Origin: Hwanghaeella sp. | Lineage (GTDB): Bacteria; Pseudomonadota; Alphaproteobacteria; UBA8366; Aestuariispiraceae | DNA length: 35,979 nt | Assembly (NCBI GenBank): GCA_028282025.1 | Contig: JANQIT010000157.1 | Location: 1-35,979 of the forward strand | Reading direction: 5' to 3' | Shown: positions 5,463 to 12,504 of the stretch, piece after piece | How the letters are laid out: each line of letters opens with the position of its first letter | Position numbering within the stretch: position 1 is the first letter of the stretch | Made by a program: the position numbers and the translations under genes | The notes under the pieces: generated by a model | The model's database searches: none | What the model was told of the DNA's origin: nothing | Seen by the model: the letters and a program-made list of their open reading frames with translations, nothing else

Positions 5463-7145
5463 GTGTCACGCGTAAAGTCGTATCGGGAAGCAGCGGAAAC
5501 CGCTGAACGGGACCGATTTGTCGGTTTCTCGTTCGCCGGTGGAGATCTGCTGATCGAAACGACGCCGGAGGGGGAGATTGTCTTCGCCGCCGGCGCGAGC
5601 GTTAGTTTGCTCGGCGTGAACATAACTGAAATGTTCGGCACGTCCTTGGCATCCTGGTTTCGGGATCCCTATCGGACAATTCTGGGCTCGGCCCTGAAGG
5701 CCAGCCTGGACGGGGTGCGCAAAGGTCAGATCGTGGCCCAGACCCGGACCGGCGAACAGGTCGAGCTGAGCATGTGTTCGCTGCCGCGCGACCGCTCCAA
5801 CGTGTATATATCCATCTGCGACCGGCACGACGTCGCCGGGCAGGATGGGGAAACCGAAAATCTCCGATTCGTCGACGCAGCCGTATCCGCCATCGAATCG
5901 GACCGCGGCGAAACCGCCATTACCTTGGTCGATCTGTCCTCTCCCCTGCTGTCGGACGAAGAGGCGGGGAAGGATCTTCAGGCGGAACTCGACCTGGTTC
6001 TGCGGTCCTATCTGCAGGCCAACGCGGTGAACGCCGACGCCGCCACCAAACTGCCAAGCGGGCAATACGGCTTCATCCATACCGCCGAGCAGGACATCGC
6101 CGACATCGTCTCGGAGGTGGAGATTATCGCGATGTCGCTGGACCCGGCCATGCGGAACATTCGTGTCCGGGCGGGATCGTTGCCCACGGCCGATCTGCGG
6201 GAAAACAAGACGGTAGCCCGGCGCGCCTTGCAGCGGGTTCTGGACAATGTCTGCAAAGAGGCTTTTTCCGGTACAGGCGAGAAGGATGTCAGCGCGATGT
6301 TCCGGGCCAGCGTCGAGGCGACGCAAGGGCGGATGGGGCAGGTCGCCCGGATGTTCACCAACCATGAATTCGCGCTGCATATTCAGCCCATCGTCTCCTT
6401 GAGCAGCGAGGAAGTCAGCCATTACGAGGTCTTGAGCCGTTTCCGAAACGGACAGTCGCCGTTCGAGACCGTCGCCTTTGCGGAAGATACGTCCCTGATT
6501 CAGGATCTGGACAACGCGGTGGTGGAACGGGCGCTGAAAGCCATCGGCCAGGGACTGGCGCCGGGGCCGGGCGGGTTGGCGGTCAACGTTTCCGGGGTTT
6601 CGCTTCAATCCCCGGCCTTCATTCAACGCGTCCTCGATCTCTATACGGGCACCCCGGAGGCGGCGGGCAAGTTCAGCGTTGAAATCACCGAATCCGCGAA
6701 GATCGACAATCTGGAACAGGTCCGCCATTTCGTCGACCGCCTGCGTCAGGCGGGCATTATCGTGTGTCTGGACGATTTCGGCGCGGGTGCGGCGTCTTTC
6801 CAATATCTCCAGGCGATGGACGTCGATTGCGTCAAGATCGACGGCCTTTACGTCAGCCGCATGCTGTCCAACGGGAAAGAGTACAGCATGATCCGCGCGC
6901 TCGCCGACCTGTGCCGCGATCTGAAGATCACCACGGTCGCCGAATATGTCGAGGACGCCCGCCATGTCGACGCGCTGCGCGGGCTGAATATCGACTTCGC
7001 GCAAGGTTTCTACTATGGGCGTCCGGCCCCGCTCGAAGCGCAATCCCTACCCAAACCTGCACAGCAGAGTGCGCTAGAGTCCGAGGCGGACCCCTCAAGG
7101 AACGACTCCTTCATCTGGTCGTCGGATCCCGTAAAACAGGGATAA
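5463..7145 (+). CDS. EAL-domain protein with PAS-like N-terminus
   Basis: Probable cyclic-di-GMP phosphodiesterase or c-di-GMP sensor. The C-terminal half (about residues 295-530) is an EAL domain: HIQPIVSL, EVLSRF in place of EALLR, AVNVSG, VEITESA, CLDDFGAG, VKIDGLYV, TVAEYVED and QGFYYGRP. The metal-binding Glu, Asn, Glu, Asp-Asp, Lys, Glu and Gln positions are therefore all present, so activity is plausible. Residues about 20-115 look like a PAS-type sensor; residues 120-290 are a linker or divergent domain I cannot name. There is no membrane segment, so it is cytosolic. The start is GTG at 5463, as no ATG occurs in the first 50 codons. It precedes the STAS/PP2C genes by 250 bases and may or may not belong with them. 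Confidence 0.85.
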   Translation: MSRVKSYREAAETAERDRFVGFSFAGGDLLIETTPEGEIVFAAGASVSLLGVNITEMFGTSLASWFRDPYRTILGSALKASLDGVRKGQIVAQTRTGEQVELSMCSLPRDRSNVYISICDRHDVAGQDGETENLRFVDAAVSAIESDRGETAITLVDLSSPLLSDEEAGKDLQAELDLVLRSYLQANAVNADAATKLPSGQYGFIHTAEQDIADIVSEVEIIAMSLDPAMRNIRVRAGSLPTADLRENKTVARRALQRVLDNVCKEAFSGTGEKDVSAMFRASVEATQGRMGQVARMFTNHEFALHIQPIVSLSSEEVSHYEVLSRFRNGQSPFETVAFAEDTSLIQDLDNAVVERALKAIGQGLAPGPGGLAVNVSGVSLQSPAFIQRVLDLYTGTPEAAGKFSVEITESAKIDNLEQVRHFVDRLRQAGIIVCLDDFGAGAASFQYLQAMDVDCVKIDGLYVSRMLSNGKEYSMIRALADLCRDLKITTVAEYVEDARHVDALRGLNIDFAQGFYYGRPAPLEAQSLPKPAQQSALESEADPSRNDSFIWSSDPVKQG

Positions 7146-7397: not shown

Positions 7398-7745
7398 ATG
7401 GAGGTTTCTTCGGAAAGCCGGGACGGAGCGGTCATCGTCGCGGCCAGCGGGCCGATTGACCACGCGACGGCGGGATCGTTCGAAGCGGCGGTAATGCCGG
7501 CCTTGGAGGATGCGCAGGCACGGGATCAGGGCTTGGTCTTCGATATGTCCGGCGTCGATTATATGAGCAGCGTCGGCCTGCGCGTTCTGATGCTGGTCGC
7601 GAAGGCCGCCAAGACGAAACAGACCCCAATCGCCGTATCGTCGCTGCAGCCATCCCTGGCGGAGATTTTTCAAATCAGCCGGTTCGACAAGATCTTCACA
7701 GTTTACGACGACGTACAGGCGGCGGTGGACGGCATCAAGCCGTGA
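7398..7745 (+). CDS. STAS-domain anti-sigma factor antagonist (RsbV/SpoIIAA-like)
   Basis: Single STAS domain of 115 residues. In partner switching, such proteins bind a serine-kinase anti-sigma factor when unphosphorylated and let it go when phosphorylated. The signature VFDMSGVDYMSSVGLRVL is present; Ser58 in the SSVGL motif aligns with the phosphorylated serine of RsbV. ATG 7398 starts the domain cleanly; the frame is open to a TTG at 7335 but those residues are not STAS-like. It lies at the head of an operon with the MBL hydrolase and the CHASE2-PP2C phosphatase, which would be its phosphatase. The RsbW-like ATPase at 12082 is the natural kinase. Function beyond the fold is inferred from context. 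Confidence 0.9.
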   Translation: MEVSSESRDGAVIVAASGPIDHATAGSFEAAVMPALEDAQARDQGLVFDMSGVDYMSSVGLRVLMLVAKAAKTKQTPIAVSSLQPSLAEIFQISRFDKIFTVYDDVQAAVDGIKP

Positions 7746-7792
7746 CGATGACGCGCCGGGCCCCCAAGAGGCCGCGGCCAGGGAGCAGGGAT

Positions 7793-8755
7793 ATGCTGGT
7801 TCGGTTCTGGGGCACGCGCGGATCGCTGCCCGTGGCGATGAGGGCGGATGCGGTGCGCGGCAAGATCGCCAAGGCGCTGAAGGCGTCCCGGGGCAAGGAT
7901 CTGTCGGACGATACCAAGATCGACTCCTTCATAGAGAGCGATCTCGACTTCTCCGTATCGGGGACTTTCGGCGGCGCGTCCTCCTGCGTGGAGATAGATC
8001 TCGGCAATGATGAGTTCATTGTCTGCGACATGGGGTCCGGCCTGCGGGAATTCGGCCTTTCCTCCTTGCCCAAGGTCGCGACGGGGTCCAAGTCCGGGCG
8101 CTACAATATCTTTCTGTCGCACCCCCATTGGGACCACATCATGGGCTTTCCCTTCTTTGCGCCCGCTTTCGTCCCCACCAATTCCCTGCACTTCTACGGC
8201 GGACACGATATAGAGGCGGCGCTGCGCCGCCAGCAGGAGGATCCATCTTTTCCCGTCCCATTGGAATGGATGGGCGCAAGCCGAGAATTCACCCTGATGA
8301 CGGAGGGCGAGACGGCCGGTTTTCCGGACTGGTCGGTGACGATGAAGAAACAGCCGCATCACGGGGACTCTTTCGGCTACCGCTTCGAACATCGGGACAA
8401 GGTGGTGGTCTATACCACCGACGCGGAGCACAAGCTGGAAGATATGGAGGGCATGGACGCGCATATCGAATTCATGCGGGATGCCGACGTGGTGATTTTC
8501 GATACCATGTATTCCATGGCAGACGCGATTTCCGTAAAGCAGGATTGGGGACATTCAAGCAACACCGTCGCCGTCGACATGTGCCATCAGGCGAATGTCA
8601 AACAGTTGGTCATGTTCCATCATGAGCCGGTGCACAGCGACGCCATGATTGTGCAGACCCACCGCGAGACGATGCGCTATGAAGAACTGGTGCGGCCGGG
8701 TGAAGCCGCCCTTACCGTATCCTGCGCCTATGACGGGATGGAGATTACCGTCTAA
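7793..8755 (+). CDS. MBL-fold metallo-hydrolase (PhnP/cyclic-nucleotide phosphodiesterase-like)
   Basis: Metallo-beta-lactamase fold enzyme of about 320 residues. The metal-binding motif reads SHPHWDHIMGFPF (HxHxDH), with further ligands expected from KQPHHGDSFGY, YTTDAEHK, FDTMYS, the WGHSS stretch and FHHEP. The start MLVRFWGTRGS is typical of the branch containing PhnP and cyclic-nucleotide phosphodiesterases, hence ATG 7793, with AGGGAG upstream. A longer frame from GTG 7742, overlapping the STAS stop, is possible. Substrate is unknown. It sits between the STAS gene and the phosphatase gene (11-base gap) and is surely cotranscribed with them, which suggests a role in the same signalling route. 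Confidence 0.85.
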   Translation: MLVRFWGTRGSLPVAMRADAVRGKIAKALKASRGKDLSDDTKIDSFIESDLDFSVSGTFGGASSCVEIDLGNDEFIVCDMGSGLREFGLSSLPKVATGSKSGRYNIFLSHPHWDHIMGFPFFAPAFVPTNSLHFYGGHDIEAALRRQQEDPSFPVPLEWMGASREFTLMTEGETAGFPDWSVTMKKQPHHGDSFGYRFEHRDKVVVYTTDAEHKLEDMEGMDAHIEFMRDADVVIFDTMYSMADAISVKQDWGHSSNTVAVDMCHQANVKQLVMFHHEPVHSDAMIVQTHRETMRYEELVRPGEAALTVSCAYDGMEITV

Positions 8756-8766
8756 AGGATGGGATA

Positions 8767-10944
8767 ATGTCTTCTGTTCCAGATCGCGATCCTGAAGACG
8801 ACGCCCTGGTCGGCGATGCGGACGAGGCGTCCGGCTGGTCTGAACATGCCTGGGTCCGCAAGGCGATGGCCTTCAACGGCAGGCCGGCGGCGGTCGCCAT
8901 GCTGCTCGCGGCGCCTTTCGTTCTGATCTATTGGGGCGATACGCTGGAGCCCTGGCGAAACCTGACCTTCGACGCGCATCATCAGGCCGCGCCGCGAAGC
9001 GCCGAACACCTGCCCGTTCAGATCGTGGAGATCGACGAGGCGAGCCTGCAGGAATTCGGCCAATGGCCCTGGCCCCGGCATCTGGTCGCCGACCTTATTC
9101 AGGGCGTTTCGATCCGCGGCGCGATTGTCGTCGGCCTGGATCTGATTTTCCCGGAGCCCGACCGTCTGTCCCCCCACGCGGTGATCGAGGGCCGGCCCGA
9201 TGTGGACGACACGCTGGTCGAAGCGCTTCGAACCCTGCCCAGCAATGACGACGCCTTGGCCGCGGTGGTCGGGCGCTTTCCGGTCGTCCTGGGCCGCGCC
9301 GCCCTGGAGGGTGAGGTGGCCGAAGCCTGGTATGACCGCGATCCGCCGATGCCGACGACCAACCTGATCGACCCGGTGCTGCTGGACGCCCTGCCGAAGG
9401 CGGATGCCGTGGTCACCAATCTTTCGGCGCTTGAAAACAGCGCCATCGGTTTCGGGATACTCAACGGACCGCCGGATGCCGACGGCGTCGTCCGCCGCGT
9501 GCCGCTGGCCATGAACATCAATGGCCGTCCGCACGCCACCATGATCCTGGAAGTGCTTCGGGTCGCGCTTGGCCATCCGGAGGTGACGTTCCACGGCGAC
9601 GCGGACGGGATCGATGGCGTGGATATCGGTGGGAACTTTTTTGCATCCGATCCGGACGGGCGTATCCGGCCGCACTTCACCCATTCCCTGGAAGACCGTT
9701 TCGTCTCCGCGGGCGATGTTCTGGCGGGCCGCGTCGCGCCCGATGCGTTCGAAAATCAGGTGGTCCTGATCGGCGTCACCGGTATCGGCGTCATCGACAA
9801 GCGTTCGACGCCGGTCTCGCCCCTGGTGCACGGGGTGGAAATTCAGGCCCAGGTTCTTGAAAACCTGTTGCTGGGAAACCGGCTTGTCCGCCCCGTCTGG
9901 GCCGATCCGTTCGAAGCCGGCGTTCTGCTCTTCGCCGGTCTGCTGGTTATTCTGCTGATGCCGGCCAGACCGATCTGGCAGACCTCCGCGGCCTTTCTGC
10001 TGGCGACGGTGGCGGCGGGTGCGCTGACGCATTACGGCTTTGTCAGCCGCAACCTGCTGCTTGATCCGGTTCTCCCCTCGTTCCTGGCGGCCCTGGTCTT
10101 CTTGTCCATGCTAACCATTCTGCTGGCGGAACTGGACCGCAGGCGGCGCGCCCTGCGCCAGGCCTTGCAGAACGAGCGGGTCGCCGCGGCGCAGGTCGCG
10201 GGGGAATTGAAGGCGGCGCGGGATATTCAGCTCGGCATCCTGCCGGACCCGAAGAATATAGACCATCTGCCGCCGACGGTTTCCGTCAGCGCCTTTTTGG
10301 AATCCGCGAAGGCGGTGGGCGGGGACCTCTACGACCTCTTCATGGTGGATGGCGACCGGCTGTTCTTTCTGGTCGGCGATGTCACCGGCAAAGGCGTTCC
10401 GGCTTCCCTGTTCATGGCCTTGAGCAAGGCCATGAGCAAAAGCGCCGCGCTGCGGGCGGGGTCGGAGAGTATGGATGTCATCATCGACATGGCGAACGAG
10501 GAAATCTCCCGCGAAAATCCGGCCTCGCTGTTCGTTACGGTTTTCGCCGGGATCGTCGATTCCAGAACGGGCTCCATCGAGTTCTGCAATGCCGGACACG
10601 AAGACCCGCACATCTTGCGGCCCGATGGATCGGTCCACCCGCTGCAATGCGATGGGGGGCCGCCGCTGTGCGTCTTCGAAGGATTCCCCTATCCGCTGGA
10701 ACGGGTCACGCTGGCGCCCGGCGAAACCCTGGTGATCACAACGGATGGCGTGACGGAGGCGAAACGCGCGGACGGCGTCTTTTACGGCCACGACCGTCTG
10801 GTACGCGCGCTGGAGCAAGCCGCCGGACAAACCGATCTGCACGAGGCCATCGCCGGGCTTGCCGGCGATGTGCGCCGCTTCGAAGCGGGGGCCGATCCGA
10901 CGGACGATCTGACCGTCCTGGCGGTCCGGTTTAACGGACCGTGA
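8767..10944 (+). CDS. CHASE2-domain sensor with PP2C/SpoIIE phosphatase output
   Basis: Membrane sensor phosphatase of 725 residues. An N-terminal membrane segment (about 40-56) leads into a periplasmic CHASE2 domain (about 60-370; VQIVEIDEASLQEFGQWPWPR is the classic start). Three transmembrane helices (about 384-458), a short coiled coil, and a cytosolic SpoIIE-type PP2C domain (about 480-724) follow. The phosphatase metal-binding aspartates are visible in GGDLYD, VGDVTGKG, ITTDGVTEA and the final DDLTVLAVR, so it should be active. Its likely substrate is the phospho-STAS protein two genes upstream. ATG 8767 follows AAGGA. The gene ends 14 bases inside the convergent OmpA-like gene. Confidence 0.93.
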   Translation: MSSVPDRDPEDDALVGDADEASGWSEHAWVRKAMAFNGRPAAVAMLLAAPFVLIYWGDTLEPWRNLTFDAHHQAAPRSAEHLPVQIVEIDEASLQEFGQWPWPRHLVADLIQGVSIRGAIVVGLDLIFPEPDRLSPHAVIEGRPDVDDTLVEALRTLPSNDDALAAVVGRFPVVLGRAALEGEVAEAWYDRDPPMPTTNLIDPVLLDALPKADAVVTNLSALENSAIGFGILNGPPDADGVVRRVPLAMNINGRPHATMILEVLRVALGHPEVTFHGDADGIDGVDIGGNFFASDPDGRIRPHFTHSLEDRFVSAGDVLAGRVAPDAFENQVVLIGVTGIGVIDKRSTPVSPLVHGVEIQAQVLENLLLGNRLVRPVWADPFEAGVLLFAGLLVILLMPARPIWQTSAAFLLATVAAGALTHYGFVSRNLLLDPVLPSFLAALVFLSMLTILLAELDRRRRALRQALQNERVAAAQVAGELKAARDIQLGILPDPKNIDHLPPTVSVSAFLESAKAVGGDLYDLFMVDGDRLFFLVGDVTGKGVPASLFMALSKAMSKSAALRAGSESMDVIIDMANEEISRENPASLFVTVFAGIVDSRTGSIEFCNAGHEDPHILRPDGSVHPLQCDGGPPLCVFEGFPYPLERVTLAPGETLVITTDGVTEAKRADGVFYGHDRLVRALEQAAGQTDLHEAIAGLAGDVRRFEAGADPTDDLTVLAVRFNGP

Positions 10945-11512
10945 CTTCCACCCGCCGGTTTTGCGGCTCGTCCACCTCGTCCTCGGTCTGCACGACCGGT
11001 TCGCGCTCCCCGCGGCCCACGGCGATAACCAGGTCCGGCGGCAAACCGCGCCCGATCAAGGTTTGCCGGACCACGTCCGCGCGATCCCTGGACAGCACGT
11101 CGTTGTCTTCCACCTTGCCGACCGTATCCGTATGACCGGTTACCTGAACCTCCGCGCCGGGCCGCGCATCCACTTCGCGCAGCAACCGCTCCAGGTTCGG
11201 CAGGGAGCCGTCGGTCAGACGGGTCGACCCTTCCCGGAAGTAAAGCACGAAAACGGCGGGCTTCGGCGGCAGCGCTTCCAACAGCGCGCCGTAAGCCGCC
11301 GCGACTTCCTCCGCCGACGTCGTTTCGGTGGAGACCTGGATGCCGCCGACTTTGCCGACCTGATAGGGTTGGTCGATCACCGCGACCGCGCCGCCGTCCT
11401 CGTCCAGCACTGCGACCGCGCCGGTCCCGCCGGCGCCGCCGGGCAGCAGGGTCACCGTATCGCGGGCGCATGCCGCCAGAAGCAGCAGGGCCAGAACCGC
11501 AAGGACCCTCAT
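10931..11512 (-). CDS. OmpA-family lipoprotein
   Basis: Putative outer-membrane lipoprotein, 193 residues. The signal peptide ends in a lipobox (LLLLAAC, Cys15). The C-terminal half is an OmpA/MotB peptidoglycan-binding domain: FREGSTRLT, VTGHTDTVG, LSRDRADVV, GRGEREPV and NRRVEVTV. The N-terminal half (20-85) is unassigned. Its start overlaps the FecR gene stop by four bases (ATGA), so they form a two-gene operon facing the CHASE2 phosphatase. FecR and CHASE2 proteins are often gene neighbours, so this protein may help tie the periplasmic sensor to the cell wall; that is inference. Confidence 0.88.
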   Translation of the reverse strand: MRVLAVLALLLLAACARDTVTLLPGGAGGTGAVAVLDEDGGAVAVIDQPYQVGKVGGIQVSTETTSAEEVAAAYGALLEALPPKPAVFVLYFREGSTRLTDGSLPNLERLLREVDARPGAEVQVTGHTDTVGKVEDNDVLSRDRADVVRQTLIGRGLPPDLVIAVGRGEREPVVQTEDEVDEPQNRRVEVTVR

Positions 11513-11940
11513 TGCGAAACCTCAACGACGAATTCGGTCCCGCGCACACCCAGGATAGAGGACGGGGTGCGAACCTTCATGGCGTCCGGTTTCCGCTTGG
11601 CGATCTGGCCCGAGATGATGGCCAGCGACCCTTTTCGCAGACGGGTGTCGAATTCCCCGTCATGTGTGGTGGCGTTGAAGCGGAACCGCGACAGTTCCAC
11701 ACGGCTGTCCGGGCCGGCCGAGAACCGGCTGTTATCGACGAAGGTTACGCCCAGCTTGCCGTCCGGGCCGGTTACCAGCACGTCCGACTCCTGCAGGGTC
11801 ACGCCGGACTCCGCCTTCAGCAATTCGCCGCCGCGTTCGATGGAGGCGTCCCCCGTCACGGTTTTCACGCGCCCGATATCGGCGAACGCCGGGCCCGCCA
11901 TCAGGGCGATCAGCGTGCCGATCAACAGTCTTTGCAACAT
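11509..11940 (-). CDS. Periplasmic FecR-domain protein
   Basis: Secreted protein of 143 residues with a FecR domain. A signal peptide (MLQRLLIGTLIALMAGPAFA, cut before Asp) is followed by the FecR beta-rich core: VTGDASIERGG, SDVLVTGPDGKLGVTFVD, SRVELSRF and the closing TPSSILGVRGTEFVV. Unlike the true FecR of iron-citrate signalling, it has no cytoplasmic anti-sigma segment and no membrane helix. FecR proteins of this kind commonly accompany CHASE2 sensors and are thought to act with them in the periplasm. ATG 11940 has AAAGGGA upstream; the frame runs open to 11976. It is divergent from the RsbW-like gene. Confidence 0.9.
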   Translation of the reverse strand: MLQRLLIGTLIALMAGPAFADIGRVKTVTGDASIERGGELLKAESGVTLQESDVLVTGPDGKLGVTFVDNSRFSAGPDSRVELSRFRFNATTHDGEFDTRLRKGSLAIISGQIAKRKPDAMKVRTPSSILGVRGTEFVVEVSQ

Positions 11941-12081
11941 CTTAGGTCCCTTTGAGACTTGTTTCGCACACCCCATCGCGCGCGAGTCTAACCTGGAACG
12001 GGTTAAGGATCGACTCCGGAAACGGTTCGCGTCAGAGTCCTGGTGTCAATACTTCCTGCGAAGAGTGAACAGCCATTGAAG

Positions 12082-12504
12082 ATGGATTTTCCAACACGGA
12101 TGGAAGCTCTGCCCCGCCTGCCGGCCTATCTGGAAGCGGTGGCGTCGGAGTATGGGCTGACAAGCCGTACGGTCGGCGTTCTTCGCCTGATGCTGGAAGA
12201 GTTGATGACCAACAGCATCATGCACGGGCGCGCGCCGCCTTCCGCGCCGATTGAGATTGTTGTGACGGTCACGGACGGGGAGACCCGGATTCTCTACAGC
12301 GACGCCGGTTTTCCCTTCGACCCGCGCTGCGAACTGCCGCCGGAGTCGCGGTTCGACGATCTAGACGACCGGCCGATCGGCAAGCTTGGATGGCCCCTAA
12401 TCCTGCATTATTGCAGTTTTGAAGATTACACTTTCGCGAAAGGCCGCAACCGGATGCGCTTTACGCTGGACCGGACGCGCCTAGCAGCATCGGTAGATTG
12501 TTGA
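12082..12504 (+). CDS. RsbW/SpoIIAB-like serine kinase (HATPase) anti-sigma factor
   Basis: Small stand-alone GHKL ATPase of 140 residues. The N box (EELMTNSIMHG), the DAGFPFDP motif for the adenine-binding Asp, and a degenerate glycine box (IGKLGWPLI) are in order. Proteins of this type phosphorylate a STAS antagonist and sequester a sigma factor or another target. The STAS gene at 7398 and the phosphatase at 8767 are its likely partners; no sigma factor is seen in the window, so the final target is unknown. The start is uncertain: ATG 12082 gives the usual N-terminus, with TTG 12076 and GTG 12043 also in frame. The last 44 bases overlap the aminotransferase gene on the other strand. Confidence 0.85.
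   Translation: MDFPTRMEALPRLPAYLEAVASEYGLTSRTVGVLRLMLEELMTNSIMHGRAPPSAPIEIVVTVTDGETRILYSDAGFPFDPRCELPPESRFDDLDDRPIGKLGWPLILHYCSFEDYTFAKGRNRMRFTLDRTRLAASVDC

Follow-up and report, generated by a model that had tools for sequence, protein, structure and literature searches.

The window analysed here is a stretch of 35,979 nucleotides from Hwanghaeella sp., in which six genes adjoin at 7398-12504. In order, they encode a STAS protein, a metallo-beta-lactamase-fold (MBL) hydrolase, a CHASE2-PP2C phosphatase, an OmpA lipoprotein, a FecR-domain protein and an RsbW-like ATPase (Table 1). Three transcription units share the locus: STAS-MBL-PP2C on the forward strand, FecR-OmpA on the reverse strand and the ATPase gene on the forward strand. 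The CHASE2-PP2C and OmpA genes converge with a 14-bp overlap, and the FecR and ATPase genes diverge, an arrangement retained at most loci carrying the module. An initial annotation had named all of these genes in their correct positions, as the Pfam domain matches confirm, and had pointed to an ATGA overlap of FecR and OmpA, which is real (4 bp, 11509-11512). It had also called the genes contiguous; they do adjoin one another, but the convergent and divergent junctions are at odds with a single operon. The same-strand order of its operon-like STAS-MBL-PP2C unit holds, while an overlap between STAS and MBL depends on the start codon: the MBL frame spans 7742-8755 from an in-frame upstream GTG at 7742, and only with this start do the two frames overlap. 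Because the conserved start is Met18, translation probably begins at 7793, which leaves a 47-bp gap. The annotation's remark that the window holds no sigma factor also stands, in that none turned up in those window proteins that were scanned, though a remote one may exist. At its far end the ATPase gene overlaps a HisC-like aminotransferase gene tail-to-tail by 44 bp (window 12461-12504). An EAL protein (5463-7145) was considered as a further part of the module and rejected, since its homologue adjoins no other module.

Table 1. Features of the locus, with coordinates in the window and the evidence for each assignment.
Feature	Position	Strand	Basis
STAS protein (RsbV/SpoIIAA-like), phosphosite Ser58	7398..7745	+	Pfam STAS PF01740, E 1.7e-21
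Metallo-beta-lactamase-fold hydrolase with extra N-terminal helical segment	7793..8755	+	Pfam Lactamase_B_2
Membrane sensor phosphatase CHASE2-SpoIIE/PP2C	8767..10944	+	Pfam CHASE2 1.6e-48, SpoIIE 9.8e-45
OmpA-family lipoprotein, lipobox Cys15, peptidoglycan-binding OmpA domain	10931..11512	-	Pfam OmpA 5.8e-17
Periplasmic FecR-domain protein, signal peptide	11509..11976	-	Pfam FecR 2.4e-10, hydropathy, family alignment
Divergent intergenic region FecR/ATPase	11977..12042	.	Sequence; 11941-12081 with conserved starts
RsbW/SpoIIAB-like serine kinase ATPase	12043..12504	+	Pfam HATPase_c_2 8.8e-13; conserved start possibly 12082

The STAS protein matches TIGR00377 above its cut-off and carries the motif SSxGLR, which is invariant, Ser58 included, across 17 aligned homologues. 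This serine aligns with the phosphoserine of SpoIIAA (SpoIIAA Ser58), bearing out its earlier designation as the phosphosite position, and provides the phosphorylatable residue typical of RsbU/V/W-type systems; asparagine was found at position 58 only in genome G167, discussed below. The window genome contains six STAS matches, among which the window protein scores best and one other lies in a short open frame.

Pfam matches and hydropathy give the domain order of the phosphatase as a transmembrane helix, a periplasmic CHASE2 domain, three transmembrane helices, a helical linker that ends in AARDIQ and the SpoIIE/PP2C domain. A coiled-coil linker transmits the signal in RsbU, and the same has been proposed for related phosphatases (PMC12143880). 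The metal-binding residues (GGDxxD, GDVxGKG, TDG and DD) are kept across homologues, as in RsbU/V/W-type enzymes, and the best NCBIfam match of the PP2C domain is SiaA, far below the SiaA cut-off. The cultured relative Hwanghaeella grinnelliae has a phosphatase of 63% identity. We searched for CHASE2-PP2C proteins in titled contigs and in whole genomes (relatives, a class sample and a phylum sample). They are rare, occurring in 13 of 385 sampled alphaproteobacteria and 3 of 398 genomes in the phylum sample, with the window genome included in both. In G353 (L110 3339-7713) the CHASE2 and phosphatase halves lie ~2.3 kb apart, as if split by an insertion.

A profile of the ATPase finds RsbW (6m36, E 2.7e-16, the best PDB sequence match) and SpoIIAB (1.5e-9), and its structural model (pLDDT 89) has SpoIIAB, UsfX and RsbW as the best Foldseek matches. 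Residues E40 and N44 (N-box), D74 (G1) and G100 and G103 (G2) are invariant, consistent with a small GHKL protein. There are 17 HATPase_c_2 matches in the window genome; this one scores best and is alone in lying in a short open frame. The window phosphatase is, moreover, the only SpoIIE-family protein found in that genome. With one SpoIIE phosphatase and one free-standing RsbW-like ATPase, the two are therefore obvious mutual partners, and any classical STAS/ATPase pair serving this phosphatase is, as judged from the sequences, the one encoded in the window.

The metal ligands of the MBL hydrolase, H110, H112, D114, H115, H189, D210 and H276/H277 (numbered from the Met at 7793), are invariant among 18 homologues. 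The predicted fold is RNase Z/YhfI/PhnP-like (model pLDDT 82; best Foldseek match RNase Z, 3.6e-15), but the fold alone is shared with RNase Z, for which the protein scores 58.6 bits against an NCBIfam cut-off of 293. Nor does it match the class-II cAMP phosphodiesterase family PF02112 (PDEase_II) at E 0.01; PF02112 does match the MBL neighbour of a CHASE2-cyclase in Aliidiomarina (L017 9051-12040), a class-II-like phosphodiesterase encoded directly upstream of a CHASE2-adenylyl cyclase. The subfamily is sharply bounded, with 16 of the 385 alphaproteobacteria scoring at least 376 bits and the next only 222. Twelve of these 16 belong to the 13 phosphatase-bearing genomes of that sample. Four remain: in G330 the MBL gene adjoins CHASE2 at a contig end, G286 and G365 have STAS-MBL (followed in G365 by the ATPase gene), and the last is G167. 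Linkage of the hydrolase to the module is as tight as that of any other part, and its gene sits between STAS and the phosphatase in nearly all genomes bearing the module. On plasmids, CHASE2-PP2C was not found and only more distant MBL relatives were, two of which adjoin PilZ or HDOD genes, a context that is not diagnostic.

FecR comprises 155 aa over its whole frame, with a signal peptide and a FecR domain and nothing else; its start is probably the Met at 11940. A role as a FecIR-type anti-sigma factor was rejected, as the N-terminal anti-sigma domain is absent. In the OmpA lipoprotein, the lipobox Cys15 and residues D129 and R144 of the OmpA domain are invariant across 18 homologues. Pairs of this kind are not confined to the phosphatase. 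FecR-OmpA pairs adjoin CHASE2 histidine kinases in alphaproteobacteria (L214, L218, L220, L221 and L223) and in a Sulfurovum MAG (L021), and in L216 and L022 the adjoining CHASE2 proteins have an ATPase domain of kinase type and no HisKA match. The FecR-OmpA pair is thus a reusable input, found with CHASE2 proteins of differing outputs. The statement in the initial annotation that CHASE2 proteins near FecR usually have cyclase outputs was too narrow; beside the FecR-OmpA pairs examined here, the outputs are mostly histidine kinases. Since some pairs (L217, L219, L222, L226 and others) lack a CHASE2 protein in the sequence retrieved around them, the association is frequent and not universal. 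FecR beside CHASE2 kinases or cyclases was already known (PMC5192318, PMC9239204); for its association with this OmpA family and a phosphatase, we found no published account. In a Desulfuromonadales MAG (L020 2811-7578), a CHASE2-HD-GYP gene has a FecR-OmpA pair on either side, one pair codirectional with it and the other convergent.

Neighbour genes around the CHASE2-PP2C matches were identified by profile. The six genes are contiguous in seven alphaproteobacterial families (f1, f2, f3, f85, f97, f151 and f67), either in the window order or with the ATPase gene alone shifted to the head of the operon; family f71 has all but an adjacent ATPase, and in f84 and f86 some genomes carry STAS-MBL-PP2C without FecR-OmpA beside it. 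Flanking genes differ between families, so the unit has been kept while its surroundings changed. The co-occurrence of the six genes exceeds chance, and a failure to recur in other genomes, which the annotation had named as the result that would count against it, was not observed. Other layouts separate the parts differently. In G135 an operon runs ATPase-STAS-MBL-PP2C, with the ATPase gene first and 3 bp from STAS, and in G270, G736 and G153 OmpA-FecR is divergent from the ATPase gene at a locus of its own, apart from the phosphatase. More than one arrangement therefore keeps the ATPase and FecR-OmpA linked to one another and to the other genes, and the ATPase family was present in all 11 further phosphatase-bearing genomes tested. 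A betaproteobacterial MAG contig, possibly misbinned (L007), has MBL-PP2C convergent on OmpA and a FecR end. Several of the compared genomes are incomplete draft assemblies, and in G153 and G204, where the phosphatase lacks adjoining STAS-MBL, contig ends or gene damage may be responsible. In G204 (L211 6317-8535) a short phosphatase-only gene is convergent on OmpA-FecR with the ATPase gene, and adjoining CHASE2, STAS and MBL genes are missing.

Two genomes lack part of the set. G167 (95% complete) retains only STAS-MBL, and neither a SpoIIE protein nor this ATPase family was found in it; its STAS protein has Asn58, and the MBL metal ligands are intact. G365 retains STAS-MBL-ATPase with Ser58. 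No SpoIIE phosphatase was found in G365 despite the ATPase and Ser58, and another phosphatase would therefore be needed there. The comparison, a single case, is consistent with Ser58 as the shared substrate of kinase and phosphatase and with STAS-MBL as a possible downstream pair.

With the genes, domains, catalytic residues, linkage, copy numbers and one co-loss observed, the whole is probably a partner switch (CHASE2-PP2C, STAS and ATPase) with an envelope input. The peptidoglycan-tied OmpA lipoprotein and periplasmic FecR would signal envelope state to CHASE2 in the periplasm, which would alter the helical linker and so switch the cytoplasmic PP2C domain. The phosphatase would dephosphorylate STAS Ser58; the ATPase would rephosphorylate it and bind unphosphorylated STAS. 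Much like SiaC acting on SiaD, STAS would then, in one of its phosphorylation states, probably bind the adjoining hydrolase and regulate it. The first of these steps follow from what is known of the families; signal direction, phosphorylation, the MBL protein as target and its substrate are all inferred. That the hydrolase is the output is a suggestion we place a little below even, drawn from its linkage and the G167 case. In its fullest form the proposal, which we put forward tentatively, is an envelope-gated switch with the MBL enzyme, which might be a phosphodiesterase breaking down a nucleotide signal, as its direct output through STAS binding, and with FecR-OmpA-CHASE2 as a cassette exchangeable among histidine kinases, HD-GYP proteins and the partner switch. 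The annotation had proposed a full RsbU/V/W-type switch with FecR/OmpA/CHASE2 input; the co-occurrence of its parts is upheld, but it left out a role for the hydrolase. Release of an unseen target of the ATPase, as it envisaged, is less likely than a STAS output on the hydrolase, given how tightly the MBL gene is linked and that it remains beside STAS in the absence of kinase and phosphatase.

The output is most likely something other than a sigma factor. A classical anti-sigma switch, in which the ATPase would hold a sigma factor, or a different regulator of transcription, encoded elsewhere until dephosphorylated STAS binds the ATPase, with the hydrolase as an accessory or modulator, is the best of the alternatives and still rather unlikely. 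The closest relatives of the ATPase (RsbW, SpoIIAB and UsfX) are all anti-sigma factors, and RbaVWY of Rhodobacter capsulatus, with no sigma gene nearby, still affects gene expression (PMC3999984); however, the window has no sigma factor, the genes beyond the module differ between families, and G167 keeps MBL-STAS without the ATPase. It is unlikely that the hydrolase instead acts upstream, making or destroying a small-molecule modulator of the phosphatase or kinase. An MBL-fold phosphodiesterase does lie beside the CHASE2 adenylyl cyclase of Aliidiomarina (L017), and a cAMP phosphodiesterase and FecR occur in CHASE2-cyclase clusters of Campylobacterota (PMC9239204), but such a role would leave the hydrolase idle in G167, which has neither kinase nor phosphatase. 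Mere proximity of two independent systems, FecR-OmpA in the envelope and STAS/PP2C/ATPase in the cytoplasm, would suit the opposite strands, the three transcription units and the f84 and f86 genomes without adjoining FecR-OmpA, but this is highly improbable, as the juxtaposition repeats in many families amid different surroundings, FecR-OmpA in other phyla lies beside CHASE2 proteins whose outputs differ, and it adjoins the ATPase even where apart from CHASE2.

The preferred reading, a partner switch acting on the hydrolase, has partial precedents. The Bacillus RsbU-RsbV-RsbW and SpoIIE-SpoIIAA-SpoIIAB systems share its three protein classes, phosphoserine, ATP boxes and phosphatase residues, whereas the module described here is unlinked to a sigma factor, has CHASE2 and FecR-OmpA as periplasmic input and includes a tightly linked MBL gene. 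Among systems whose output is an enzyme, we regard SiaABCD as the closest working analogue. SiaC is not known to be a classical STAS protein. SiaABCD of Pseudomonas aeruginosa comprises a phosphatase, a kinase, a substrate protein and an enzyme output, as in our module, but that output is a diguanylate cyclase (SiaD) activated by SiaC, where here the candidate is an MBL hydrolase (PMC7647112, PMC8457831). In RbaV-RbaW-RbaY, likewise from an alphaproteobacterium, the STAS, ATPase and PP2C proteins also have no sigma factor linked to them, and the STAS protein has paired serines; RbaY differs in its REC input domain and in a locus apart from rbaVW, and FecR, OmpA, CHASE2 and MBL go unmentioned in the part of that paper covered here (PMC3999984). 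A Burkholderia operon of FecR/LysM and a CHASE2 histidine kinase (PMC5192318) and clusters of FecR with CHASE2 adenylyl cyclases (PMC9239204) share the placing of FecR beside a CHASE2 receptor, but have kinase and cyclase outputs, respectively, and no partner switch. In a search of mainly open-access literature, no paper turned up that connects CHASE2 to both PP2C and FecR, or a partner switch to a metallo-beta-lactamase. As far as this literature shows, the parts are known, and the CHASE2/FecR-OmpA input and probable MBL output are undescribed for partner switches. Many Gram-negative partner switches have no known target, and a candidate output gene inside the module makes the question directly testable. 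In addition, the FecR and peptidoglycan-bound OmpA pair, recurring with different CHASE2 outputs, offers a concrete candidate for the input that CHASE2 senses.

Two further observations concern relatives of the components. Elsewhere in the window genome (L051, G000:C15, 2907-6990) CHASE2 genes occur in tandem, one encoding a protein of 508 aa without a recognised output domain that adjoins a CHASE2-cyclase. In G122 (L136 53-1821) and G236 (L140 5772-9370), an RsbW-like ATPase gene is divergent from an apparent mla-type ABC lipid-transport operon.
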